A DNA stretch of 64,000 nt from an uncultured Clostridia bacterium (lineage in GTDB: Bacteria; Bacillota; Clostridia; Christensenellales; UBA3700). Below the pieces are notes generated by a model. It was given only the letters and a program-made list of their open reading frames with translations, did no database searches and was not told where the DNA came from. Both the position numbers and the translations under genes were made by a program. Below, piece after piece: positions 17,760-54,871 of the stretch (within the stretch, counting starts at the first letter, position 1; every line of letters begins with the position of its first letter). The DNA lies in the NCBI GenBank assembly GCA_947646415.1, contig CANSGN010000002.1:1-64000 (forward strand). The letters are read 5' to 3'.

Positions 17760-17863
17760 GAAAATCGTGGGTAAAAACAAAAACTACTGAGTTTATTCAG
17801 TAGTTTTTGTTTTTTATAATTATATATTTGCAAGTTTCCTTTTATAAGCTTGTTGTGCTTTTT
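17760..17863. repeat. Left island boundary: direct repeat carrying the 3' end of the transketolase gene
   Basis: About 103 bp nearly identical (roughly 6 differences) to 30192-30294. It includes the GAAAATCG element, a terminator hairpin (17779-17808) and, on the minus strand, a remnant of the transketolase C-terminus that reads KKAQQAYKRKLANI-stop. Similarity continues weakly inward for about 5 codons (QDFI versus QDIV). This is the pattern left when DNA inserts at a gene's 3' end and duplicates the site. An alternative is decay of a formerly duplicated transketolase gene. Confidence 0.75.
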
Positions 17864-17873
17864 TAATAAAATC

Positions 17874-17902
17874 TTGACATACTATGGCAAGTAAGATATA
17901 AT
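17874..17902 (+). promoter_or_regulatory. Consensus sigma-A promoter of the island sigma-factor gene
   Basis: TTGACA (17874-17879), 17-bp spacer, TATAAT (17897-17902), a perfect match to the housekeeping consensus, 40 bp before the sigma-factor start. It lies within or directly against the boundary repeat. Confidence 0.8.
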
Positions 17903-17942: not shown

Positions 17943-18467
17943 TTGAAACAATTAGATTATAAAAAAATAAATCATTATATCAAGCAGGTTGCAAATGGAA
18001 ATGAGCATGCCTTTGATAAATTGTTTAAATATACATATAAAAATATGGAAAGCATTGCAAAATACTATTTGAAGAATAAGAATAGTGTTGAAGATGTTTT
18101 GCTTGAACTATATAAAAAAATTTTGTTGAAAGCAAGTAGATTCGATATAAAAAAGAATGGATATAATTGGATGTATACAATCATAAAAAATTTAGCAATA
18201 GATGAAAACAAAAAGGATATAAAAGTAGAATATATAAGTAATAGTTATTATGAAATTGAAGACAAAAGTTTTCAGCCGTTGAAAACACTAATTGTTGAAG
18301 AATTAATGTCAATACTAAATGATAAAGAAAAAGAATTGTTATATCGTATGTTTTGGGAAGGATATACAATTAAAGAAATAGCAGAAATGGATAATGTCCC
18401 TATAGCTACAATATATACGCAAAGAACACGAATTTATAAAAAAATGAAAAATTTTTATCAAAATTGA
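17943..18467 (+). CDS. ECF-type RNA polymerase sigma factor
   Basis: A 174-aa small sigma-70-family protein. Residues about 20-85 are region 2 (AFDKLFKYTYKNMESIAKYY, then the YNWMYTIIKNLAIDE promoter-melting part). Residues about 115-170 are region 4 (EEGYTIKEIAEMDNV-like helix-turn-helix, then TIYTQRTRIYKKMK). There is no region 1 or 3, as in ECF factors. The start is a TTG at 17943 with only a weak AAGGA upstream, so the N-terminus is uncertain. First gene of the island. A membrane protein resembling an anti-sigma factor lies two genes downstream, and matching ECF-like promoters precede both secreted-protein units. Confidence 0.8.
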   Translation: MKQLDYKKINHYIKQVANGNEHAFDKLFKYTYKNMESIAKYYLKNKNSVEDVLLELYKKILLKASRFDIKKNGYNWMYTIIKNLAIDENKKDIKVEYISNSYYEIEDKSFQPLKTLIVEELMSILNDKEKELLYRMFWEGYTIKEIAEMDNVPIATIYTQRTRIYKKMKNFYQN

Positions 18468-18502
18468 ATAAAAATTGTAAAGTTGTTCGTATATATAGTG
18501 GA
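18464..18502 (+). promoter_or_regulatory. Putative ECF-sigma promoter, copy A
   Basis: TGAATA (18465-18470), 17-bp spacer, CGTATA (18488-18493). The whole 39-bp stretch recurs at 20111-20149 with few changes. The form resembles ECF promoters (TGAAAC-type -35, CGTA-type -10). It overlaps the end of the sigma gene and drives the secreted-protein gene at 18512. Confidence 0.6.
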
Positions 18503-20048: not shown

Positions 20049-20067
20049 AAACGGCTAAAACATAACG

Positions 20068-20110
20068 AAAAAAGAAGAATTTTTGAGATTTTCAAAAATT
20101 CTTCTTTTTT
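20068..20110 (+). terminator. Strong terminator after the sigma/anti-sigma operon
   Basis: AAAAAAGAAGAATTTTTGA pairs with TCAAAAATTCTTCTTTTTT across a short loop, an almost perfect 19-bp stem. The next ECF-like promoter begins directly at its 3' edge. Confidence 0.85.
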
Positions 20111-20149
20111 TTGAATAAAAATTGCCAAGTTATTCGTATACAAAGTAGA
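20111..20149 (+). promoter_or_regulatory. Putative ECF-sigma promoter, copy B
   Basis: TGAATA (20112-20117)-17-CGTATA (20135-20140), within a 39-bp stretch matching copy A at 18464. It precedes a 200-bp leader of the secreted-protein/ABC unit. The leader has a GGGAGG at 20171 but no convincing small coding frame behind it. Confidence 0.6.
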
Positions 20150-20316: not shown

Positions 20317-20353
20317 CAAAATTAAAATTTATATTAATTTGGGAGGACTAGAT

Positions 20354-21220
20354 ATGGTCAAAAGTAAAAGTTTATGTAGCAAAATTACAATAATATCAAT
20401 TTTGATAATTATGACTTTAATTATTGCATTAAGCAGTATATTTTTAACTAACAATGTATATGCAGAGGAAGCAGGTGCCGTAGCTACAAGCGAAACGAAC
20501 AAGGAATATGGAATATATGCATCTGCAAGTTATAATATCTTGGCAAATGGTGGACATCAAATTGGCACCGTAACAATGAAACTTTCAACTTGTTTAAGAG
20601 AAACAGGTGATGGAATGATACTTATGCAACTAGAAGTGGCACCAAGAGTTGATGATGGAGCAAATGATTATAAAGTAATTCAATTCAATACAAATCTTGC
20701 TTATGGGGCTGATAATGGTGGCATAACCTATACTTCATGGAAAGATAATAGCTCTGCGAAACTTGTTGATAGTTCAGGAAATGTAGTTTCAAATAGAGGC
20801 GTGACATTTAATGTTGGCTCAAACTTTTCATCTTCGTATGGGGTTAGAAATGTGAATGTCTTTAATAAAGATGACCCGTCAAATAGTTATTCTTTGAATA
20901 AAATAAGCTATATTTCTTTAGAAAATCCAGCTAAAGATATGACATATACTTATCAAATTGCATTCTTTTTCAAGGCTAAGCCAAAAGATTTGACTATTTT
21001 TTATGCGGAAATGTATAATCTTCAAGTGGATGGAATATTCTTGGCACCTGATTATGGTGCAAATAATAATGAGAATATATTCTTATGGGGACTTTATAGT
21101 ACAGAAAAAAAGGAGTTTGGCATAGAAAATAATTCATCTACACATACTGGTAAAGACGATGGTAGTCCAAACGATACTTTATCATTAGTAAATTTTGATA
21201 CAGTTCCATTTGTACGATAA
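20354..21220 (+). CDS. Secreted protein of unknown function (island cargo 1)
   Basis: A 288-aa protein. Signal peptide 1 to about 40 with a long hydrophobic core, ending NVYAEEAGA. The mature 245 aa are rich in Asn, Ser, Thr and Tyr, and look like beta-sandwich material with no cysteine after the signal region except one (STCLRE). ATG 20354 is chosen over the TTG at 20339 because GGGAGG lies 8 bp before it. The ABC/FtsX gene follows after 68 bp without a terminator, so the two are probably one operon. Not recognised; possibly a substrate of, or an outer partner for, the exporter. The ...AEE signal end is shared with the proteins at 18512 and 24042. Confidence 0.6.
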   Translation: MVKSKSLCSKITIISILIIMTLIIALSSIFLTNNVYAEEAGAVATSETNKEYGIYASASYNILANGGHQIGTVTMKLSTCLRETGDGMILMQLEVAPRVDDGANDYKVIQFNTNLAYGADNGGITYTSWKDNSSAKLVDSSGNVVSNRGVTFNVGSNFSSSYGVRNVNVFNKDDPSNSYSLNKISYISLENPAKDMTYTYQIAFFFKAKPKDLTIFYAEMYNLQVDGIFLAPDYGANNNENIFLWGLYSTEKKEFGIENNSSTHTGKDDGSPNDTLSLVNFDTVPFVR

Positions 21221-21288
21221 TATTTTATGTTTACCAATTTTTAGGTTGGGTAAGACTTTTAATCTAAATATAAGGAGTGCAACAAATA

Positions 21289-23805
21289 ATGCTAAGAGTT
21301 AAAGATTTAACAAAAACTTACGAAAATGGAGTTGAAGCCTTAAGAGGAGTGTCTTTTGACACTCCTAATTATGGTATGATAGCAGTTGTAGGAAGTAGTG
21401 GTTGTGGAAAGTCTACTTTGCTAAATGTTTTGTCAGGCATTGATGAAAAAAGTGATGGCGAAATATTTATTTTTGGAGAAAAGTGCAATCCTAGAGAGAT
21501 TAAGTCAACTTTTGCTACAATATATCAAGACTATAAATTAATTGAAAACCTTAGTGTTATAGATAATATTTTGGTCGCAAAGGAATTGGTTGCTAGTGAC
21601 TATAGTATAGAGCAAATTGACGCTTTGCTAGATAAACTTGGCATTTTTGAGTGTAAAAATGAAAAAGTACTTAGTTTGTCTGGTGGACAAAAACAAAGAG
21701 TTGCTATAGCAAGAGCATTAGTACAAAAGCCAAAAATTATTTTTGCAGATGAGCCTACAGGCAATCTTGACAGCAAAAACAGCAAAAATATCTTTGGTTT
21801 ACTTCAAGAATTAGCAAAAGATATTCTAATAATTGTTGTTACACATGATGTTGAAACTATAAAAAATTATGCTAATCGAATGTTAAGGTTGCAAGATGGC
21901 GTAATTGTAGAAGATAAAGTACTTACTGAGGTAGCCGTTTGTAAAAATGTAGAAAAACCACAGAATATCGGCGTGCAAAAGGCTAAAAAAGTTGGTTTAA
22001 GTTTTAAAACATCTATGTCAGTAGCGATTGCTTTTAATAAAGCAAAGGTAGGCAGACGAATTGCTTTTATGGTTATTTCTACTCTTTTATTGCTAGTTAT
22101 GATGGTATGTTGTAACTGGGCAATGATTGATTATCAAACAATGGTAAGTGCTACATATGACAAAAGAAATGCTAGCAATATGGCTAAATCACAATACGAA
22201 AAATATCAAACTATTGAGAAATCAGATGGTACAATACAAGTAAGAACATATTGTGATTTGACTCCTATCCAAGAATATTTAAAAACTAAAAAGGGTATAA
22301 CAAGTGCAAAAATTTATAACAAAAGTATTGCTCCAAGCATATTTGATATTCCTTTTTCTTACGAATTTAATAGTTTGCATACAGAAGGGGCAAAAGGCAA
22401 ACTGACAATGCAAGAAATCGCATATGGAAGTGCTGGAACGTCCAGTTATATTGTAATAAATGACATTGAAAGTTTAGGTATAAAATTACTTGAAGGCAGG
22501 TCCCCAAAATATTTGGGTGAGGTAGCTATACCAAAAAGCAAACAAATTTATTTTAATGCTTTAGGTGGATATTATGATAGCAATATAGAGGAATATATAG
22601 AAATTGCACCAGATGAATTATTAGGATACGACTTTTTTGGCGTCAAGATTGTTGGTGTTTTTGATGATGGTGTTGAGGTGCCAAAAAAATTTGCAAAGCC
22701 TTTCACAAGTTGGGAAGATAAAGAATATATAGAGGCACAATCTTTTGTGAGTAATAAAGTCTTGTCACAAGTTGTAATTGTTCCAACATGTTATAGTGAG
22801 ATTTGGGATGCAGCATTTTATATGAAAGGAACTCAAAATGCTAAAAGCAGTCAAGGACAATATATTAACACATCAATGATAGTGAAAGATGAAATCTATA
22901 ACAATATCGGTGTTGCTCCCGCTAATAAACTGACAGAATATTACACCGGTATTTCAAGGGTGGAACAAGGTAGTGTATTATTAAGTAAAATGTTTGCAAC
23001 ACAGCATAATATGAAAGATGGCGATACAATTATATTATCAACTGCTTTAGTAAGGGGTGATATAAACCCAATGTCAACAAATTTTGTTATTGACAAAAAT
23101 ATTCAGTCTCTGAAAAAATTTAAGGTTAATGTTGATAGCAGAATAAGTAGTGGTTGGGATATTTTGTACAATGAAGAAGATTACAAAATGATGATGGATA
23201 ATGTGATGCCTCAAGCTAACCAAATTATTTATAATATAGATGGTTTAAGCACTGGTGAATTAAAAGAATTAAATAGACAATGCCAAAAAATATTTGGGGT
23301 GTCAAATTGGGACTTTTTGCATTCAATGTTAAGTTTTGAAATTGATGATAGTAGAGACCTATTAGGTAAATATTTTGAAATGAGAATGATTGGCGATTAC
23401 GTAATGATAATCGCAAGCGTTATTTTGGCATGTATAATTGCAATCTTGTTATATAATTCAATTAGCATAATTATAAACTCAAAAGCAAACGATTTACTTA
23501 TTTTGAAATCATTAGGAGCGAAAAAACTTGATTATTTAAAAATCTATGGTATATTTACTATTGTGCAGCTATTTATTGAACTTGTTGTAGGAATAGGACT
23601 CGGTATTGGCGGGGTGTTCTTGCTTAATGCATTTATAACAAAAGTTGCTAGTATGGAATTTATTGTTCAATTACCATTGATACCTATGGCGCTACTGACA
23701 ACAATAGCTATTGCTATAGTTGCAAGTGTAATGTCTTTGACAATTAACATTTGTAGAATAAGCGACAAAAATCTTCGCAAAGCTTTTCAAAAAACTAAAG
23801 AGTAA
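21289..23805 (+). CDS. Fused ABC ATPase-FtsX permease (MacB-like), copy 1
   Basis: An 838-aa protein. Residues 1 to about 225 are an ABC ATPase: Walker [10 protein letters not shown], signature LSGGQKQR, Walker B IIFADEPT, switch His in VTHD. A first membrane span lies near 262-285, then a large outer domain of about 400 residues, then three C-terminal spans of FtsX type (700-830). This is the MacB/LolC-E mechanotransmission layout, used for export or extraction of peptides and lipoproteins. ATG 21289 with AAGGAG; an in-frame GTG at 21277 overlaps that site and is less likely. A 569-bp stretch of the ATPase part (21322-21890) reads identical to 27519-28087, while the outer domains differ strongly. 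Confidence 0.85.
21322..21890. repeat. Identical ATPase-coding repeat, copy 1
   Basis: I find no difference between this 569-bp stretch and 27519-28087. Divergence begins abruptly on both sides. This suggests recent duplication or gene conversion confined to the ATPase domain. Confidence 0.8.
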
Positions 23806-24039
23806 TTTAGAAAACATAAATTATAGACAAAAAAAACAGTTAAAAATATTGTTAAACTAGGTTTTTCTATATATAATAAATTTTTTATTGTCACTATAAT
23901 TGAAAAGTGCCATTAAATTTACTTTAATCATCTACTTGCTTAAATTAATTTTGTCTAAAATTAAAAAATGCATAATTAATAAAAATTAATTGAAAATCGG
24001 GGGTAAAAACAAAAACTACTGCGTTTAAACAGTAGTTTT
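23746..24039. repeat. Module-end repeat, copy 1 (gene tail, element and terminator)
   Basis: About 294 bp matching 29946-30239. It contains the last 20 codons of the ABC/FtsX gene, 185 bp of AT-rich spacer, the GAAAATCGGGGGTAA element (23992) and the terminator hairpin (24011-24039). The terminator also occurs at 17779. It ends exactly where the truncated gene at 24042 begins. Confidence 0.85.
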
Positions 24040-24041
24040 CA

Positions 24042-24530
24042 ATGATAAGTGTTTTTGCATTCACTAACGTAGCTAGTGCTGAGGAAGCTCAACCATATGG
24101 TGATGTAAAAGTAGGAGATGTTGAGGGGGATGGTACTTATGAAAATCCTTATCATGAGAAACCATGGCATGGAAGAATTACAACAAAAGAAAATATTTAT
24201 GACAATTATTACATAGAAATAAATGTTGACCCTAGGGATAGTATGTTTGGTGATGATATTATAATAGAATATAAATACTTTTATATTGATTCTTCAAATA
24301 AAAGACAACCTGTTAAGTTACAAAAATTCGAAGCAGAGATTCAATTCCGTGAAACGCACAAGGGTGTAATAAAATATTTTGACCCTATTTATATATCAAA
24401 AGCCAATGATAATGAAGCTGGATTTACAAAACATTCAGGGACATTATATGCTGACCAAGTTACTGTAAAAGTTACGGTTACAGCAAGCGCAAGTCTAGTT
24501 AAAGACTTTTACTACAAATTTACTAACTAA
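24042..24530 (+). pseudogene. 5'-truncated secreted-protein gene (island cargo 2)
   Basis: 162 codons. The N-terminus reads MISVFAFTNVASAEEAQ, which is only the end of a signal peptide: the basic part and most of the hydrophobic core are missing. The ATG lies 2 bp after the terminator repeat, with no ribosome binding site. The rest (about 145 aa, a beta-rich body with PRDSMFGDD and DPIYISKAND) is intact. So a recombination event joined a terminator copy to the middle of the signal sequence. Without expression it is a pseudogene; rescue from another start is not visible. It was probably the cargo of the ABC unit behind it. Not otherwise recognised. Confidence 0.6.
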
Positions 24531-24545
24531 AGGACTAAAAAGGCA

Positions 24546-25616
24546 TTGAAAAAGCGATTTGAAGTTTTTATGGATAGCCTAAAGCAGTCGGCTTTGCACA
24601 AGCCGGCGGCTTTAGCTATGTTTATTTTGATGATTATTATGGCGACAGTAGCGTGTGGGTTTTCCTCACGCACTTTAGTCGGCGAGATTGAAAGGGAATT
24701 TTATCCGGAAAAACCCAATATTACTTTTCAAGACACATCAAAATATGTGCAAGTTGGCGACTATATGAGAAACATAAAAGACGAATATTTTGATTATTAT
24801 TATAACTTGGGTAATATTGAAGGATTTAAGATGGTCGAAGATATTGAAGTAAATGGTGAAAAAAAAGAATTGGGGCGGGTAGAAATAAACTTTGAAGTTT
24901 TTGCAAATAAATTGGCGGAAAACGATATTAAAAAATGCAAGAAAGTTATGTATATTAACAAATTGTTCAGTGACAAAACAGGCTTGCATAAAGGTGATAC
25001 AATTACATTTTGTGGTACGGACTTTGTGATTGTTGGTATAGATAGCAGTGGTGACGATGGTTGGGAAAGCAAAATAACTATTCCATATTCTGTACAATTT
25101 GAAGATTCAAGCAATATTCAATTAGAATATTTAAGTTTTTATGGTTTGAAGAAAAATTTTAATAAAAAAATATATGATGACCTAGAAAAAATCGGTGTAA
25201 TAAAAGGTAAGAAATATTTAAACAGTGTTATATTTCAGTCAGTCTTTATGTTATTAGCTTTTCTTGTAGCATCAGGACTAGCTGTTATAACTGTCACTAA
25301 CTATTGGCAAAGCGTAAATATGCGAAAATATAAATTGTACAAGGCAATGGGGGCGTCACCAAAGGTTGTCAGTGGAATAATGTTTTTTGAGACAGGTGTT
25401 ATTTCGGCATTGGCAGTGGCTATTGGTTTATTGTTTGATTTTATCATAAATTTGATAGTAGAAATTGGTTCAATTTCCAGAATGTTGTGGTTGCATTATT
25501 TGATACTTTTCTTTGCGACATTGTTTGTTGTAATGATAATGGTAGGTATCAAGATAGTTAAGATTGCAAAAGCTTTGCCAATGGAACAGCCATCTGATAA
25601 AAAGGTGAGAAAATGA
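24546..25616 (+). CDS. FtsX-like ABC permease subunit A
   Basis: A 356-aa membrane protein. One N-terminal span at about 20-40 (LAMFILMIIMATVACGF), an outer domain of about 180 residues, then three spans between about 230 and 340 (FMLLAFLVASGLAVITVTNY and two more). This is the FtsX/LolC fold. The start is a TTG at 24546 with AAAGGA 10 bp upstream; ATG 24570 is an alternative. Overlaps the next gene by 4 bp (ATGA). With 25613 and 26770 it forms a complete MacB-type transporter: two permease halves and one ATPase. Confidence 0.75.
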   Translation: MKKRFEVFMDSLKQSALHKPAALAMFILMIIMATVACGFSSRTLVGEIEREFYPEKPNITFQDTSKYVQVGDYMRNIKDEYFDYYYNLGNIEGFKMVEDIEVNGEKKELGRVEINFEVFANKLAENDIKKCKKVMYINKLFSDKTGLHKGDTITFCGTDFVIVGIDSSGDDGWESKITIPYSVQFEDSSNIQLEYLSFYGLKKNFNKKIYDDLEKIGVIKGKKYLNSVIFQSVFMLLAFLVASGLAVITVTNYWQSVNMRKYKLYKAMGASPKVVSGIMFFETGVISALAVAIGLLFDFIINLIVEIGSISRMLWLHYLILFFATLFVVMIMVGIKIVKIAKALPMEQPSDKKVRK

Positions 25617-26722
25617 AGAAAAAAATACATTTGTTTTTATATAATCTCAAAAACTCGTGGTTGTTTTTGACAGTAATATTTGTTGAACTGATAATTTGTA
25701 TGAGTTTGCTAGCCGTTGCTTTGACTAACTATTTAGGCGTTAACAGCAAGTTTTCTTATTATAATGCAAAGATAGCTGACAAAAGCTTTGTAATGTTTGA
25801 AAACTTCAGTTCGGAAGTGAACTCAACGGCAGAGAATGTTTCCAAATGGCTTAATGATGATTTGAAAAGCTTAGTTACTTCCGTTAATATTGGTGAAATA
25901 CAGGTAAATGATGATTGGAGAAAAAGTATACCTAGACTTACTATTGCGACTCCTGCATTGTGCACAAATTTGAATAACAAAGGCTTGAAATTTTCATTCA
26001 ACAGCGATAGCGATTACAGAGAAGCATACGTTTCGGCTATATTTAAAGATGTATATAAACAAAATCGGATATACGACATATCTGTTGATTGTGATGACAA
26101 TGTTTACGATACAAAAATCAAGGTTATAGGATATTTTGATTACAAAGAATATTATAGTTTTTCAGGTAGCGATATTTATTACGCAAATGTAGATATGGTT
26201 GTATGCGATGAGTTGCCTCCATTTGTAAGTCTGTCAAGTGGAATATTTATAAATGATAAGCAGCCGACTCATTATAAGGATTTAGGGTTCAAATCTTTGA
26301 CAGTGAAAGAGTATTACGAGTATTCAAGAGACGGCTCGCCGTATGAGGTATATTTGTACTTTGCAATGATTGTAATATTATTCACTTTTGTTACGATTTT
26401 GTGCAACTATATATTGAGCGTGGACAATATGACTAAGCGAAATGCTTTGCTTTATGCGTGTGGAAATACAAATGTTGCAGGCATAATGATTGAAGGTGTA
26501 AAAATGCTATTTGCATTTTTGATGGCTTTTGTGGTTAGCATTTGCATCGCAGAACTCACAATGTTTATTGGATTGGAAAGACAAAATATTGTTATGACAA
26601 GAGAAAATTTTTATCTGTCAGCTTTAATAGTGTTTGGACTATATATTGTAGCGATTACTATAGGATTTGTCAAGTTTGTTAAGGCAAAGCCATTAAAAGT
26701 AATTAGCCTTGAGAAAAAGTAG
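25613..26722 (+). CDS. FtsX-like ABC permease subunit B
   Basis: A 369-aa membrane protein with the same topology as its neighbour: span near 13-38, outer domain, then three spans from about 245 to 360 (MIVILFTFVTILCNYIL; LFAFLMAFVVSICIAEL; LIVFGLYIVAITIGFV). It ends in AKPLKVISLEKK, the typical FtsX tail of coupling-helix residues. Coupled by ATGA overlap to subunit A, and followed after 47 bp by its ATPase. Confidence 0.75.
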   Translation: MKKKIHLFLYNLKNSWLFLTVIFVELIICMSLLAVALTNYLGVNSKFSYYNAKIADKSFVMFENFSSEVNSTAENVSKWLNDDLKSLVTSVNIGEIQVNDDWRKSIPRLTIATPALCTNLNNKGLKFSFNSDSDYREAYVSAIFKDVYKQNRIYDISVDCDDNVYDTKIKVIGYFDYKEYYSFSGSDIYYANVDMVVCDELPPFVSLSSGIFINDKQPTHYKDLGFKSLTVKEYYEYSRDGSPYEVYLYFAMIVILFTFVTILCNYILSVDNMTKRNALLYACGNTNVAGIMIEGVKMLFAFLMAFVVSICIAELTMFIGLERQNIVMTRENFYLSALIVFGLYIVAITIGFVKFVKAKPLKVISLEKK

Positions 26723-26769
26723 TAAAGTGACTTTGATTTAGTTAAATTTAAGAAAAAGGAAATAAAATT

Positions 26770-27441
26770 ATGAGCATAATTGAACTTATTCAAATTGATA
26801 AAAAATACAACGAAGGTAGAGACAATGAAGTACACGCGTTACGTGGTATTGATTTAATGATTGAAAAAGGGGATAGCTTGGCTATTATGGGTGTTTCTGG
26901 CTCAGGAAAGTCTACTTTGCTAAATATCTTAGGTTGCCTTGATAAACCAACTTCAGGTAGTTATAAATTAAATGACCATAATGTCGCACATAAAAATGCC
27001 AGTGAACTAGCAAAAATTAGAAATCAAACAATAGGCTTTGTTTTTCAGTCTTTTGGTTTGATTGAAAGCGACACGGTATATTCAAATGTGAAACTACCAT
27101 TGTTATTCAGTGATAAATACAAAGGTAAAGAAGTCAAAAATAGAGTTTTAGACATAATTAAACAAGTGGGGTTGGAAGGGAACGAAAATAAAAAAGTGAA
27201 AGATATGTCAGGTGGTCAGCAACAAAGAGTTGCAATAGCAAGGGCAATGGTAAATGACCCAGATATAATACTAGCTGACGAACCAACAAGTGCTTTGGAT
27301 AGCAATACATCAGATGAAATTATGAAAGTATTGTTAGATTTGCAAAAGAAAGAAAAAACAATAATAGTTGTAACTCACGACATAAATGTAGCAAAAAAGA
27401 TGGATAAAATAGTATCAATACAAGATGGTATTATTATATAA
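26770..27441 (+). CDS. ABC transporter ATPase (MacB/LolD type)
   Basis: A 223-aa ATPase of usual LolD/MacB length. Walker A GVSGSGKST near 42-50, Q-loop FVFQSFGL, signature MSGGQQQR near 143, Walker B IILADEPTSALD, and H-loop VTHD. Serves the two FtsX-like permeases just upstream. Such three-gene units export peptides or give resistance to them in Firmicutes. AAGGAAATAAAATT precedes the ATG. It is followed by the second fused ABC/FtsX gene after 44 bp. Confidence 0.9.
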   Translation: MSIIELIQIDKKYNEGRDNEVHALRGIDLMIEKGDSLAIMGVSGSGKSTLLNILGCLDKPTSGSYKLNDHNVAHKNASELAKIRNQTIGFVFQSFGLIESDTVYSNVKLPLLFSDKYKGKEVKNRVLDIIKQVGLEGNENKKVKDMSGGQQQRVAIARAMVNDPDIILADEPTSALDSNTSDEIMKVLLDLQKKEKTIIVVTHDINVAKKMDKIVSIQDGIII

Positions 27442-27485
27442 ATTTGAGAAAACTAATAATTTAAATATAAGGAGCGCAACAAATA

Positions 27486-30005
27486 ATGCTTAGTGTTAAA
27501 GATTTGACAAAAGTGTATGAAAATGGAGTTGAAGCCTTAAGAGGAGTGTCTTTTGACACTCCTAATTATGGTATGATAGCAGTTGTAGGAAGTAGTGGTT
27601 GTGGAAAGTCTACTTTGCTAAATGTTTTGTCAGGCATTGATGAAAAAAGTGATGGCGAAATATTTATTTTTGGAGAAAAGTGCAATCCTAGAGAGATTAA
27701 GTCAACTTTTGCTACAATATATCAAGACTATAAATTAATTGAAAACCTTAGTGTTATAGATAATATTTTGGTCGCAAAGGAATTGGTTGCTAGTGACTAT
27801 AGTATAGAGCAAATTGACGCTTTGCTAGATAAACTTGGCATTTTTGAGTGTAAAAATGAAAAAGTACTTAGTTTGTCTGGTGGACAAAAACAAAGAGTTG
27901 CTATAGCAAGAGCATTAGTACAAAAGCCAAAAATTATTTTTGCAGATGAGCCTACAGGCAATCTTGACAGCAAAAACAGCAAAAATATCTTTGGTTTACT
28001 TCAAGAATTAGCAAAAGATATTCTAATAATTGTTGTTACACATGATGTTGAAACTATAAAAAATTATGCTAATCGAATGTTAAGGTTACAAGATGGTGTA
28101 ATTGTAGAAGATAAAGTACTTACTGAGTTATCAGTTTGTCAAAATGTAGAAAAAACACAAAATATCGGCGTGCAAAAGGCTAAAAAAATTGGTTTGAGTT
28201 TTAAAACAACTATGTCAGTAGCGATTGCTTTTAACAAAGCAAAGATAGGTAGACGAATTGCGTTTATAGTTATGACAACTATTCTACTTATGATACTTAT
28301 GTTCTGCTGTAATTGGGCATCAATTGATTACGAGACTATGGTTCGTGCTACTTACGACCAGAGAAATGTAAGTAATATGGTTATATCTGAATACTCAAAG
28401 TATGAAAGAGTATCCAGAGTAATTGGTAATGGTACTTTTACTGCGACTACGCATAATGATTTGACTGAAATAAGTAAATATCTTAAAGATAAAAAGGGGA
28501 TAAACAGTGCAAAGGTATATACTAATGTAACAGATATTTTTGGTATTGATACTGAGTTTACTGGCACGCTGACTTATGATATAAATGAAAAAATGCTTAA
28601 TTTGCAAGATGTAGCATACGGATATGCATTTATAGATAAATATATAGTGACAAATGACTTGGAAAGCCTAGGTATTTCTCTTATAAAAGGAAGACAACCT
28701 GAGAAGTTAGGTGAAATTGCTATTCCTAAAAGTAAATTAATATATTTTAATGCTGTAGGTGGTTATCAAGACAAAGATACTCATAAATTTGTTGCAGTAG
28801 AGAATATTTTTGAACATAACTTTTATGGCATTAATATTGTTGGTGTATTTGATGATGGTGTTGTTGTTCCAGAAAAATTTGCAAAACCAATAAGCGAGTT
28901 TGAAAGTGAGGATGAGCAAGAGGCATATTCTTATGTTATAGATAAGATTTTGGCGCAATCAGTAATTGTTTCAACTGCTTGGAGTGATGTGTGGGATGCT
29001 ACAATGTATATTGAAAGCCCTGGAAAAGTTAAAAATAATCAAGGACAATATGTACATACCTTAATGACAACAGATAATGCAAAATACAATAACATTGGTG
29101 TAGCACCTGCTAATTCATTGACTGCACATATTACGGGTGTTGATAGTGTGGAAAAAGGTACTGTGTTAATGAGCAATCATTATGCGATGTTTAAAAATTT
29201 AAACGATGGTGATGCAATACTGCTTTCAACTATGCTAGTGAGGGGTGATGTTCAAGATTTAGGTGGAGAATATACCATTGACAGAAATATCCGAATGAAC
29301 ATAAAGTTTAAAGTTAAAATTGATGCTCGATTAAATGATATAAATAATTTAGGAATTTTGTATAATGAAGAAGATTATAAAATGATGATGGGTGGATATG
29401 AAAAATCACAATTAAATAAAATCATTTTCAATATGGATAGTTTAAGTGCAGGCGAACTTAAACAATTAAATGCACAAGCAAAGAAACTATATGGTGGGAA
29501 AAGTTATGATAACTATTATCAATCAATGTTAGATTTTATTATTGATGATGGCATACTAATAACAAGTGAATATGCTGAAATGCGAATGATTGGTAATTAT
29601 GTTTTCATTGTGGCAAGTATTATACTTGCAGCTGTTGTAGGAGTACTTATATATAATTCTATTGGTATTATTATAACATCAAAGGCAAACGATTTGCTTA
29701 TACTTAAGTCACTTGGTGCAAAAAAATTAGATTATTTCAAAATCTATGGAATATTCACAATAATACAACTTTTAATTGAACTAATTATTGGTATAGGGGG
29801 TGGTATAGGAATAATATTCTTGTTTAATTTTCTTATGACTACTATAATTGGTCAGACATTAATAGTTAAGTTGCCATTGATACCAGTATCTATAATTATT
29901 TCAATATTGATTGCAGCAGCCACTGCTGTATTGGCACTGACTTTCAACATTTGTAGAATAAGCGACAAAAATCTTCGCAAAGCTTTTCAAAAAACTAAAG
30001 AGTAA
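27486..30005 (+). CDS. Fused ABC ATPase-FtsX permease (MacB-like), copy 2
   Basis: An 839-aa paralogue of the gene at 21289. The ATPase part (1-225) is near-identical to that of copy 1. The first span (255-285), the outer domain (about 290-690) and the last three spans are diverged, but the last 20 codons are again identical. This mosaic suggests conversion or recombination at both ends with selection for difference in the outer domain, which would meet the substrate. ATG 27486 with AAGGAG. Last gene of the island before the boundary repeat. Confidence 0.85.
27519..28087. repeat. Identical ATPase-coding repeat, copy 2
   Basis: Partner of 21322-21890, in direct orientation and 6197 bp away. 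Recombination between the two would delete or duplicate a 6.2-kb module. Confidence 0.8.
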
Positions 30006-30239
30006 TTTAGAAAACATAAATTATAGACAAAAAAAACAGTTAAAAATATTGTTAAACTAGGTTTTTCTATATATAATAAATTTTTTATTGTCACTATAAT
30101 TGAAAAGTGCCATTAAATTTACTTTAATCATCTACTTGCTTAAATTAATTTTGTCTAAAATTAAAAAATGCATAATTAATAAAAATTAATTGAAAATCGG
30201 GGGTAAAAACAAAAACTACTGCGTTTAAACAGTAGTTTT
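29946..30239. repeat. Module-end repeat, copy 2
   Basis: Partner of 23746-24039, 6200 bp away. It merges at its right end into the island boundary repeat (30192-30294). Confidence 0.85.
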
Positions 30240-30294
30240 TGTTTTTATAATTATATATTTGCAAGTTTCCTTTTGTAAGCTTGTTGTGCTTTTT
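30192..30294. repeat. Right island boundary direct repeat
   Basis: Matches 17760-17863. It holds the GAAAATCGGGGGTAA element, the terminator (30211-30241, which can serve both converging operons) and the last 14 codons of the intact transketolase C-subunit gene. Confidence 0.75.
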
Positions 30295-31210
30295 CCACAA
30301 TGTCTTGCTCGGTTAGGTGCATAATTTCCGCAAGGTAAGCTTCCTTACCGACTTCGCCGTATCTGTCACCGATACCAACCCTAGTCATAGGGATAAGTAC
30401 GTCATTTTGCATAAGTAGTGCAGCAACTTCCGAGCCCAAGCCACCTATCAAATGGTGGTTTTCGCAAACTACTACGGCACCTGTTTCGCGACAAGCATTA
30501 AGTATTGTTTCGCTATCCAAAGGTTTGTAAGTGTGAAGTGCAATTACTCTTGCATTAATACCTTGGTTTTTCAATGCCATAGATGCTGCTATAGCACGGT
30601 GTACCATGATGCCGCAAGCTATAATGGTTAGGCTATCTCCGTCCACAACAGTGTTAGCTTTAAAAAGGTCGATTTTAGCGTTGTCATCATAGATTGGCGG
30701 GGTCTTTTTCCTTTGCAATCTGATATACATTGGTTTATCGCATTTTAAAATTTGAGGGAATAGCTTGTCAAGGCAAACACAATCGCAAGGCTCAACAACA
30801 ATCATATCGGGTACTTGAGTCATAAGAGCAACGTCCTCAAAGCTCATGTGAGTACCGCCGTTTACTTGTGCCATAATGCCGGGGTCTGTTCCGACGATTT
30901 TTACATTTTGTTTAGTATATCCAACGCTAACTGCAATTTGGTCATAGCATCTTCTTGTAGCAAATGGTGTAAAAGAGGAGCAGAAAGGCAATTTACCGCA
31001 ACTTGCAAGACCTGCTGCCACACCTATCATATTACTTTCCGCAATTCCGCAGTTTATAAAACGTCTTGGAAAAGCTTCCTTAAACTTTCCGGTGCCAATG
31101 CAGTTCATAAGGTCTGCCTCAAGCACGACTATTCTTCTGTCGAGTTTAGAGTATTTAATCAAATTGTCAACATAAACTTGACGCATTTCTTTATTGTGTA
31201 ATTCGCTCAT
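30251..31210 (-). CDS. Transketolase, C-terminal subunit
   Basis: A 319-aa half of a split transketolase: the pyrimidine-binding domain (MNCIGTGKFKEAFPRRFINCGIAESNMIG, with the catalytic Glu in GIAE) plus the C-terminal domain. It transfers two-carbon units in the pentose phosphate pathway together with the N-terminal subunit. ATG 31210 is preferred over 31231 since GGGAGG lies before it and it overlaps the N-subunit stop as ATGA. The 3' end, including the LANI tail, lies in the boundary repeat, so the island may have replaced the last codons. Confidence 0.9.
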   Translation of the reverse strand: MSELHNKEMRQVYVDNLIKYSKLDRRIVVLEADLMNCIGTGKFKEAFPRRFINCGIAESNMIGVAAGLASCGKLPFCSSFTPFATRRCYDQIAVSVGYTKQNVKIVGTDPGIMAQVNGGTHMSFEDVALMTQVPDMIVVEPCDCVCLDKLFPQILKCDKPMYIRLQRKKTPPIYDDNAKIDLFKANTVVDGDSLTIIACGIMVHRAIAASMALKNQGINARVIALHTYKPLDSETILNACRETGAVVVCENHHLIGGLGSEVAALLMQNDVLIPMTRVGIGDRYGEVGKEAYLAEIMHLTEQDIVEKAQQAYKRKLANI

Positions 31211-51943: not shown

Positions 51944-52022
51944 CGTTTAATTAAACATTTTGTAATTGCTTTACAAAAAGAGTACAAAAACTTTAAAAAA
52001 CTTTTCCGAAAAACCGCGATTT

Positions 52023-52049
52023 TGTACATAGATATACTTATTCTATGTA
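52023..52049 (-). repeat. Invertible element, right inverted repeat
   Basis: Partner of 51875-51901, inverted. Core: TACATAGA-TATACTTAT-TCTATGTA, perfect 8-bp arms. It ends 11 bp before the GGAGG of the surface-protein gene. The invertible segment between the repeats is 121 bp. Confidence 0.85.
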
Positions 52050-52072
52050 AGGTAAAAAACGGAGGTTTTATT

Positions 52073-54871
52073 ATGGCAAAGATTATTAAAAGGGCAGGAA
52101 TAATATTTTTTGTGTCAGTAATATCTTGTCTATTATTAATCGGGATAGTAGTTTTTGCAAATGCGAACAAAAATGTTTTGGAAAGTGCACCTACAAGTAA
52201 TATCAATAATGTTAGCATAGACTCCAAAAATAATATCACAAAAAGTACTGTCGGTAAAATAGATAAGGAAGTAACTTTTAAAGGAACTACTTGCGAAGAG
52301 ATTGCCGAAGAGTGGAATGACGTAATTGTCGAGTCCTTGGAAGGCGTGCATATCAAAGTTGTATTGTCAAGGGATTGGATTGCTCCTACTAGTGATAATA
52401 ACTATTTTGGTAGTTATGAAAATAGCTTTTTCAATGGTAGCATTGCTGTTCCGGAAGGAGCGACAATTACATTGGATTTAAATGGTTTTAAAATTGACAG
52501 AAAATTGACTGTCGCGGTTAATTGGGGTAATGTTATGTATGTAAGGGGCAATTTGATTCTTATGGATAGTAAATACGACGAGCAAAAAGTTTTGGATGCG
52601 TATAATAAAAATCCCGAATCAAATTTACAAAGTTACGGTGCTGGCGGTATAACAGGCGGATATATTACAAATGACGGTGGAGCACTAGTTGTTAGCTACG
52701 AGGGCTACTTTGAGATGAACGGCGGGATGATTTACGGAAATATTGCACAAGGATCGCAAGGAGGAGGTGCTATTTATTCCGGAAGAAACAGCTCGATTAC
52801 AATTAATAGCGGAATGATAATTAATAACCAAGCAACCGGTGTACACAATGGAATAATTTCTGGGGATGGTGGGGCAATAAATTTCCAAGCAAAAAAATTG
52901 CAAATTAACGGAGGAATTATACATAATAATTCTGCCATTGATACGGGTGGAGCCATAAGTGCTTACAATGACAAATCTACGGTTAATATAACCGGAGGAT
53001 TAATATCTAGAAATGCCGCCCATGGATGGGGATGCGCTATGCGTGTTGTTTGTAAAGAGTTCAATATGGACGACGGTATAATAGAAAGAAATTATTTTAT
53101 GAATGATTTGGCTGATAAAAGCGGTGCAGGAGTAGTTTACACGCAAGTGGGTACATTTAATTTTAATGGCGGCGAAATTAGGAATAATAGTTTTGATACA
53201 TACGGAGCTATTACTATTGTGTCAAGTGATGTTATTATAAGAAACTGCAAAATTTACAATAATGTTTCTGCTAAGGACGGAGCAGGTATAAATACACACC
53301 ACGCTTCAACCGGTGCATACGGTACTATTGCAATCGGTGCAGGTGCTCAAATTTATAATAATACAAACTCAAGCGGTGCTGCAGATGTTTTTTTGACAAA
53401 AGGCGAGAGGATTAGGGTAGTAGGAAAATTGGCTACTTCAAGTAGTACAACACATGTCGGTGTTTTGTTGGGTGGCAATTACACCGGAGAATTTACCTAC
53501 GGATATTATACAGGTGGCAATTACGATATCACTCCAAGCAGATATTTCTTTTCAAACAGCAATAAACGAATAGGCACTTCGGGCACAGAGGCTATTTTGA
53601 AAGATGAAGATAATACTGCTACCGACTTGACATGGAAGTGGACAGGTGGTCAAACAAACGGCGGCTCTAATGCGACAGTAAACTATACGGGGCGTGATTA
53701 TGTAATTTCTGCAACAGGCGAAATTTATATGCAAGGGGAAGGTGCTCCATTTACAAGTCGTACATTGAGGGATGCAGGAAGTTATGCTTTTTATTCTGCA
53801 GGTAATTATAAAAATCCTACATTTATGTTTACCATTTTGCCTAAGGAAGTAAATGTAGTATGGAATAATGAAAATATAGTATATAACGGAAAAGTGCAAA
53901 GCCCAACTGCAAGCATAGCGGAGGACAGCGAGTGTACTGTTACCGTACAAGGCGGCAATATAAATGCAGGTAGCGGCTATAAAGCTGTAGCTATTGCCTT
54001 AAGCAACACAAACTATAAGATAAAAGCTTCCTCAAGTACAAAATATTATAGTATTTCAAAAGCAAAATTGACTGCTCCAAGCGGAAGTGCAAGCTATATT
54101 TTGGATGGCGAAGAACACGTATTTACGCCAGATAATTTTGACGATGACAAAATGGAAATTGAGGGAAATAAAGCTAAGACGGCAGGTGTTTATACCTCAA
54201 AAATAACTATTAAAGACACAAGCAATTACGAGTGGGCAACAGGCGGAACAGAAGAGATAAGTTTAACATACACAATCGAAGATAAAAGTATGATTAAAAA
54301 CGGCATTTATGACTTTTTATATTTGGAACAGGACGAAGACAAATTGGTCAGAAAAAGTTATAGGGAAAATGGTATTTATCGATTGGTAAATGATAGCGAA
54401 GTAGTTGCAACAAATAACAACGGCAAATTGATTTTAGGCAATATTGCTCCTAATACAAGTGTAAACGAATTTGTCAATAATTTAATGTTTGATATAACCA
54501 AGTTGCAAATATACAACAGTAAAGGCATGTTAATATACGACAAAGGCAATGCTAATGTGAATGAAAATTTACTGAATAACGGCAAAGAGTTGGCTATTGG
54601 AACAGGTTGGTATATGGAGTACGAATCGGGCAGTAAAGTGGAAAGAATAACTTTATCTGTATTAGGGGATGTGAACGGAGACGGCAGGATAAGCGCAAGC
54701 GATGTGACATACTTAAGACAACTAGCAAGTGACAAAGCATTATTTGAAAGTTTAAGCACGGAAAAGAAGCTTGCAAGCATGGTAGTCAACAAAGGAGATG
54801 TGACAACCGCCGATGCGGAAATTGTAAGAAACATAATAGATAAATTGCTTACAATAAACTTATTCTTTTAA
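52073..54871 (+). CDS. Beta-helix surface protein with dockerin-like module (paralogue B), phase-variable
   Basis: A 932-aa exported protein. ATG 52073 follows GGAGG; an in-frame TTG at 52022 lies in the inverted repeat and is rejected. Signal peptide 1 to about 32, starting MAKIIKRAGIIFFVS, near-identical to paralogue A. Beta-helix region about 150-430 (GGAI/NNxA turns). MBG/Ig-like repeats at about 510-740 (ILPKEV, YNGKVQSPTA). Dockerin-like end about 864-929 with GDVNGDGRISASD. The N-terminal functional part differs strongly from A while leader and C-terminus are kept. Expression should depend on the upstream invertible promoter, which is OFF here. Confidence 0.85.
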   Translation: MAKIIKRAGIIFFVSVISCLLLIGIVVFANANKNVLESAPTSNINNVSIDSKNNITKSTVGKIDKEVTFKGTTCEEIAEEWNDVIVESLEGVHIKVVLSRDWIAPTSDNNYFGSYENSFFNGSIAVPEGATITLDLNGFKIDRKLTVAVNWGNVMYVRGNLILMDSKYDEQKVLDAYNKNPESNLQSYGAGGITGGYITNDGGALVVSYEGYFEMNGGMIYGNIAQGSQGGGAIYSGRNSSITINSGMIINNQATGVHNGIISGDGGAINFQAKKLQINGGIIHNNSAIDTGGAISAYNDKSTVNITGGLISRNAAHGWGCAMRVVCKEFNMDDGIIERNYFMNDLADKSGAGVVYTQVGTFNFNGGEIRNNSFDTYGAITIVSSDVIIRNCKIYNNVSAKDGAGINTHHASTGAYGTIAIGAGAQIYNNTNSSGAADVFLTKGERIRVVGKLATSSSTTHVGVLLGGNYTGEFTYGYYTGGNYDITPSRYFFSNSNKRIGTSGTEAILKDEDNTATDLTWKWTGGQTNGGSNATVNYTGRDYVISATGEIYMQGEGAPFTSRTLRDAGSYAFYSAGNYKNPTFMFTILPKEVNVVWNNENIVYNGKVQSPTASIAEDSECTVTVQGGNINAGSGYKAVAIALSNTNYKIKASSSTKYYSISKAKLTAPSGSASYILDGEEHVFTPDNFDDDKMEIEGNKAKTAGVYTSKITIKDTSNYEWATGGTEEISLTYTIEDKSMIKNGIYDFLYLEQDEDKLVRKSYRENGIYRLVNDSEVVATNNNGKLILGNIAPNTSVNEFVNNLMFDITKLQIYNSKGMLIYDKGNANVNENLLNNGKELAIGTGWYMEYESGSKVERITLSVLGDVNGDGRISASDVTYLRQLASDKALFESLSTEKKLASMVVNKGDVTTADAEIVRNIIDKLLTINLFF

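Follow-up and report, generated by a model that had tools for sequence, protein, structure and literature searches.

Linked ABC-FtsX fusion genes in a Clostridia family carry homogenised motors and diverged outer domains

Two linked genes were analysed in a DNA window of 64,000 nucleotides, the whole stretch under study, from an uncultured Clostridia bacterium of the GTDB lineage Christensenellales; UBA3700 (GenBank assembly GCA_947646415.1, contig CANSGN010000002.1, positions 1 to 64,000, forward strand). Both genes encode a fusion of an ATP-binding cassette (ABC) ATPase, the motor, with an FtsX-like membrane part, and their DNA alternates between identical and far diverged tracts. The genes, found by their Pfam matches and hydrophobic segments, and the tracts, found by alignment, are listed here with their positions in the window.

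21277-23805, forward strand: ABC-FtsX fusion 1, 842 amino acids, with ABC_tran and FtsX Pfam matches and 4 hydrophobic segments
27486-30005, forward strand: ABC-FtsX fusion 2, 839 amino acids, with the architecture of fusion 1 (Pfam matches, 4 hydrophobic segments)
21322-21890, forward strand: identical motor tract, copy 1, 569 bp
27519-28087, forward strand: identical motor tract, copy 2, 569 bp
21891-22076, forward strand: shoulder with 8.6% divergence from 28088-28273, covering the linker and the start of the first transmembrane segment (TM1)
22077-23745, forward strand: diverged part, copy 1, with 35% nucleotide difference, covering the outer domain and most of TM2-4
28274-29945, forward strand: diverged part, copy 2
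23746-24039, forward strand: second identical tract, copy 1, 294 bp, with the last 19 codons, the stop codon, the 3' intergenic DNA and a terminator hairpin
29946-30239, forward strand: second identical tract, copy 2, 294 bp
24040-24041, no strand: sharp junction where the identity ends, just before an open reading frame (ORF) with a truncated-looking signal peptide

From the N- to the C-terminus, both proteins consist of the ATPase, TM1 (residues ~260-280), an outer domain of ~425 residues and TM2-4. The ATPase scored 107 bits with Pfam ABC_tran in each protein and has the Walker A motif and the LSGGQ signature, and the FtsX C-terminal domain reached 33-34 bits in both, above the Pfam cut-off. 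A four-TM layout of this kind is described for MacB-like proteins in the accessible part of a MacB review (PMC5985334). The NCBIfam model of MacB (PRK10535) matched only the N-terminal part, with 132.7 and 131.1 bits at a cut-off of 966. MacB proper was rejected because of these low scores and because a MacA-like adaptor gene was not found adjoining; a Pfam scan of ten neighbouring proteins and inspection of the remaining window ORFs by eye gave no MacA-type adaptor. With TIGR03608, the ATPase model of lactococcin-972-type bacteriocin export (cut-off 254.85), the fusions scored 161-163 and a free ATPase encoded at 26770-27441 scored 227.5. Since all three stayed below the cut-off, this export system was rejected, as was a defence system, for which the PADLOC matches were ATPase matches only. 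Solved-structure relatives of the window ATPase include LolD, FtsE, MacB and BceA chains. Taken together, the window fusions are two linked paralogues of the Type VII (MacB/FtsX-like) ABC machines, with a predicted function.

An initial annotation, made from the DNA letters, had claimed that 569 bp of the ATPase coding sequence are identical between the two genes, that the outer domains have diverged far and that the last 20 codons are identical again. When the motor tracts were aligned, no mismatch was found in 569 bases, and the first mismatches on either side were at 21321 and 21891. Segment borders came from a likelihood segmentation of the aligned DNA, run blind to the domains. The differing bases per segment were 0/569 (21322-21890), 16/186 (21891-22076), 578/1651 (22077-23745) and 0/294 (23746-24039), which also confirms the far divergence of the outer domains. 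When the mismatch positions were shuffled 2000 times, the longest identical run was at most 50 bases, which rules out a chance origin of the 569-base identity. The C-terminal identity is real as well and comprises 19 codons plus the stop codon rather than 20 codons; it belongs to a tract lying mostly beyond the gene, as 234 of its 294 bases are 3' of the stop codon and run through the terminator hairpin.

The codon-aligned rates came out as the annotation had predicted. In the ATPase part no change was observed over 189 codons (119 synonymous sites), whereas the other 632 codons had a synonymous divergence (dS) of ~1.0 and a nonsynonymous divergence (dN) of 0.33, with several 30-codon blocks saturated. 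An even divergence along the gene is thereby excluded. In the diverged part dN/dS was ~0.32, a value that reads as net constraint plus age and, as an average, shows no sign of positive selection. Of the proposed motor conversion with outer diversification, the outer divergence itself stands, and the rates do not support calling it adaptive. The sharp drop of identity falls in TM1 (residues ~262-280), which puts the linker and a portion of TM1 on the conserved side. The intermediate divergence of the shoulder (8.6% over 186 bases) suggests that conversion took place in layers, by more than one event.

Linked fusions were first found elsewhere when fusion 1 was used as a query against 46 family genomes, and their neighbours were then compared. 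The family is represented by one genome per species, and the assemblies are probably metagenomic throughout. In nine of the eleven adjacent ABC-FtsX pairs or arrays the motors are homogenised (in two of them only partly). These nine, from nine genomes, are the window pair, the G002:C15 pair from the genus of the window and the arrays of G024, G027, G028, G029, G031, G033 and G035, all of genus g5. The G002:C15 motors are 98% identical in amino acids, the rest 31%, and the longest exact match is 476 nt. In g5 the longest exact match was 839 nt in G031, 728 in G027, 620 in G035, 512 in G033, 291 in G028, 179 in G024 and 95 in G029. The two fusions of G034 lie on two short contigs and were left out of the count of eleven. 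Further loci were screened for neighbours (n=27), and 26 had one complete fusion, the remaining one being the G002:C15 pair. Outside the family, a g5 fusion matched 9 of 391 genomes of the class (E 1e-75), and all nine loci held a single complete fusion; two candidates per genome were scored, so arrays may be missed.

The g5 arrays hold 2, 3 or 4 genes depending on the species. All seven begin with A-type genes, between one and three of them, and close with a single B-type gene. A and B are ~29-35% identical outside the motor, compared with 91-100% in the motors. In a DNA tree of the g5 motors (21 rows; one incomplete G034 row with 255 motor bases was omitted), the copies of six of the seven multi-copy genomes each formed one clade with a bootstrap of 97-100, and G029 was unresolved beside its sister G027. 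The tree of the protein outside the motor (22 rows) gave no clade for any of the eight multi-row genomes. All eight were split, and rows of different genomes were joined, for example G033 with G031 (B type), G035 with G028 and G027 with G029, each of these at 100% bootstrap. The proportion of synonymous differences (pS) of the motor had a median of 0.035 within genomes (range 0-0.368, 16 pairs) and of 0.678 between genomes (range 0.234-0.853, 194 pairs), and for the rest of the protein it was 0.61-0.80 within genomes. Since motors from one genome group together and the remaining protein groups by array position, the outer types predate these species and the motors were rewritten inside each genome. 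Paralogues are closer than orthologues in the converted segment, and the reverse holds outside it, in six of the seven genomes. The g5 pattern is domain-limited concerted evolution.

The border of the homogenised part was followed in 30-codon blocks. Identity was ~100% up to block 7-9 in most pairs and collapsed by block 8-10, which places the collapse at codons ~210 to 280, in the linker and TM1. In G031 the identity between A-type genes extends to codon 280, and between A and B it ends at 223. At the 3' end a homogenised stretch, less complete, was found in the window pair, in the G031 A-type genes and in one A pair of G027, and was absent between A and B. In the A-type pairs of G031 and G027 the last 30 codons were 81-90% identical versus 53-62% for the middle.

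The g5 trees strongly support gene conversion of the motor, or an equivalent recombination, in the family, as the annotation had proposed for the window. For the window pair itself, the search of the 46 family genomes at E 1e-100 gave one relative, with 33% identity. No close relative of fusion 2 was found in the genome_contigs search, none of fusion 1 in the viral_contigs search, and none in the 391 class genomes at E 1e-120 except in the own genome. As no close orthologue of either outer domain was found, either half of the window pair may have moved. When the window genes were compared with the dispersed paralogues of their own genome (the C9 and C30 copies), the motors were not homogenised (pS 0.73-0.80), so that linkage or prior identity matters.

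It was also observed that the window fusions and the loci L088, L026 and L037, distant members of this subfamily with middle parts that are 24-29% identical, have the conserved C-terminal tail NLRKxFQK in common. The relative of fusions 1 and 2 in L037 (2192-14405, G002:C12) adjoins genes that, from reading the sequence, resemble those of a peptide quorum-sensing system, two AgrB-like, an AgrC-like and an AgrA-like. The ABC-FtsX fusion in L088 (7989-10619, G000:C9) has the same C-terminal type and directly follows a gene cluster that we take to resemble the spoIIIA operon.

With good confidence, we propose that linked copies recombine and that this keeps their cytosolic motors uniform, with the outer domains persisting as separate types. 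Linked copies would undergo homologous recombination, by gene conversion or unequal exchange, with RecA-type recombination as the probable agent. One copy would recently have had its 3' tail and its motor (ATPase, linker and part of TM1) overwritten by the other. The outer domains would by then have been too diverged or too specialised for overwriting. ATP would drive a movement of the outer domain that may act on a secreted partner encoded nearby, rather than a solute transport across the membrane.

The neighbouring features in the window are given below.

17760-17876, no strand: 117-bp repeat at the left edge of a low-GC stretch, with a terminator and the 3' end of a transketolase-like gene
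17943-18467, forward strand: sigma factor of the extracytoplasmic function (ECF) type, head of unit 1 (profile matches)
20339-21220, forward strand: secreted protein upstream of fusion 1 (homologue search)
24042-24530, forward strand: secreted-type ORF, first gene of the second unit, with a signal peptide that looks truncated in the sequence
24546-25616, forward strand: FtsX-like permease, with 24.5 bits for Pfam FtsX just under the cut-off of 25.5
25613-26722, forward strand: membrane protein with no Pfam match
26770-27441, forward strand: free ABC ATPase, LolD/MacB-like, 40% identical in amino acids to the fused ATPases and not homogenised with them
30192-30307, no strand: right-hand partner of the repeat at 17760-17876

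Fusion 2 is preceded by the secreted-type ORF, the two membrane proteins and the free ATPase. The ORF at 24042-24530 appears to have lost the start of its signal peptide at the junction 24040. In the 46 family genomes the only clear homologue of the 20339-21220 product, a distant one, has its gene in G002:C12, immediately 5' of the fusion gene that is the closest relative; two more matches were short, with E ~1e-3. The secreted-protein genes upstream of the two fusions differ, and the roles predicted in the initial annotation, exporters or sensors with different partners, are plausible. In g5, a gene for a giant secreted glycine-rich protein lies directly upstream of all six arrays that could be tested, and these genes are orthologous; the G035 array begins at a contig end, where the upstream gene is not assessable. 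The giant proteins (L092 15458-19780, L104 451-5109 and orthologues) are 37-73% identical and have 874-1628 amino acids, some of the sequences being incomplete. G002:C15 has a counterpart of 989 amino acids with weak similarity (22-27% over 116-303 residues). A Pfam scan of three of the giant g5 proteins gave only one weak Listeria-Bacteroides repeat.

The edge repeats (90.6% identical) bound a low-GC stretch of 12.4 kb and resemble the edges of inserted elements. Against a site-specific integrative element, no recombinase was noticed among the ORFs between them, a dedicated search not having been made. Beyond the transketolase-like gene the gene order differs in G001 and G002. A genome-wide repeat was rejected as the source of the identical tail: among the matches listed, a 365-bp tail query had long ones at three island sites only, besides the reverse complements of the hairpins, and the others were short. 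Two segments, 18405-18502 and 20054-20149, form a 72% repeat with a shared TTGAATAAAAATTG..AAGTT.TTCGTATA stretch. The first precedes a secreted C39-like ORF, the second precedes the secreted protein and fusion 1, and both are candidate promoters of the ECF-type sigma factor encoded at 17943. About 50 kb apart in the window, 14-2995 and 52022-54871 encode secreted proteins that by eye look related, with a similar start, repeats and end.

Several points weigh against recombination between linked copies as the explanation. The adjacent pair of G009:C12 is not homogenised (motor pS 0.73), neither is the pair of adjoining fusions in G002:C12, whose motors have 38% amino acid identity, and G024 (motor pS 0.37) and G029 (0.19, not a clade) are homogenised only in part. 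For the window pair, which is without close orthologues, a recent duplication with one outer-domain replacement would look alike. The data are probably metagenome assemblies, in which repeats of such length are hard for short reads. The proposed action on secreted partners is suggested by gene order.

Three accounts of why the outer part escapes the homogenisation were weighed, and all of them are compatible with recombination between linked copies. In the first, conversion hits all linked copies and halts where divergence is high, and the slow evolution of the motor keeps the motor open to it, with no benefit involved. This is close to an even chance, though somewhat below it. Once diverged, motors do stay unhomogenised, as in G009:C12, and the window divergence climbs over a shoulder; the same logic is proposed for the domains of polyketide synthases and nonribosomal peptide synthetases (PKS/NRPS) in the accessible part of PMC4256081. 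The initial divergence of the outer domains and the fixed A-to-B order are left unexplained by it. We favour this passive escape in combination with a retained specialisation of the outer domains; selection for different partners is a further candidate reason.

Tentatively, neighbouring genes could encode the A and B halves of a heterodimer with a common motor, and conversion would be favoured since the halves of the ATP sandwich must match. The single B-type gene at the end of all seven arrays fits this, as does the contrast of unlike outer parts with like motors. LolC and LolE pair in this manner on a LolD homodimer. Many heterodimers have unequal ATPases, and a shared motor is not required for them. 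The accessible part of the MacB review describes Type VII permeases as possible homodimers or as heterodimers like LolCE (PMC5985334). The pairing of A with B is read from gene order and class, and in the window the two genes seem to belong to separate units. The structure predictions, made on single chains, are weak, also as a guide to a Porter subdomain in the outer domain. Fusion 2 had a predicted local distance difference test (pLDDT) score of 31, too poor to use, and a g5 A-type fusion with pLDDT 50 had as its best PDB match MacB 5lil (E 1.3e-8, template modelling score (TM-score) 0.18/0.26), followed by FtsE, LolCDE and BceAB chains, likewise with low TM-scores.

A cassette system, in which the identical blocks flanking the outer domain serve as recombination handles for its in-frame gain, loss or exchange, is rather unlikely. 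It agrees with the identity on both sides of the diverged part in the window pair, with an identical 731-nt block in G031 that begins in the tail of a gene, spans the spacer and reaches into the next motor, with the variable array size and with the recombination-like junction at 24040. The constant class order across species means that wholesale shuffling is not seen, and the 3' tail is not identical in A/B pairs.

That strain mixture or repeat threading duplicated the motor during metagenome assembly is very improbable. The own genome consists of 31 contigs, contigs end in or beside such genes in G034 and G025, and the junction 24040 seems to cut a signal peptide, but the mosaic occurs to differing degrees in nine arrays of nine genomes, one of which (G033) is a 9-contig assembly. 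Strong purifying selection alone, conserved as ABC motors are, is ruled out by the zero change at 119 synonymous sites and the identical non-coding tail, and stands against a median motor pS of 0.68 between species.

The window system resembles known Type VII/MacB proteins in its fused N-terminal ATPase, TM1, large outer domain, TM2-4 and FtsX-like C-terminus. It differs in that no MacA-type adaptor was seen nearby, in scoring far below the MacB cut-off and in its linked arrays with converted motors. In a literature search that left most subscription papers outside, no report was found of motor homogenisation in ABC or FtsX proteins. Similar cases are known from other proteins, as far as the accessible parts of the articles describe them. 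The Campylobacter jejuni paralogues Tlp2, Tlp3 and Tlp4 have identical signalling domains and sensory regions that are ~30% identical, but they are chemoreceptors and not ABC machines; duplication and drift of the sensory region are described there, and 'gene conversion' concerns pseudogenes (PMC9769880). In PKS/NRPS, homogenisation limited to domains within a gene cluster was shown by cluster-specific branching (PMC4256081), although these are catalytic assembly-line domains and not the motors of membrane proteins. Mammalian TLR1 and TLR6 are tandem membrane-receptor paralogues in which gene conversion limits the divergence (PMC2077338), but they are vertebrate receptors.

Domain-limited concerted evolution, known in assembly-line enzymes and with a similar case in chemoreceptors, recurs here in ABC membrane machines, and the homogenisation border at the membrane separates the motor from the outer part. 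For trees based on the ATPase and for short-read assemblies this is a warning, as both will misplace such genes. The arrays amount to natural experiments, with very different outer domains driven by one motor, and make it possible to test directly if identical motors are a requirement, as in heterodimers, or a by-product of recombination. Doubtful at present, though conceivable, is a recurrent Type VII class with one shared motor and several outer parts, in which ongoing recombination would keep the motors of a tandem A..A-B array identical and thereby leave each A half able to pair with B; all of them would act for a single giant secreted protein or, in the window, for small secreted ones. 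If this were true, the MacB/FtsX machinery would be heteromeric and combinatorial, and gene conversion would be part of how the system stays assembled. In conclusion, the pattern may enable a single motor to work with several outer parts.

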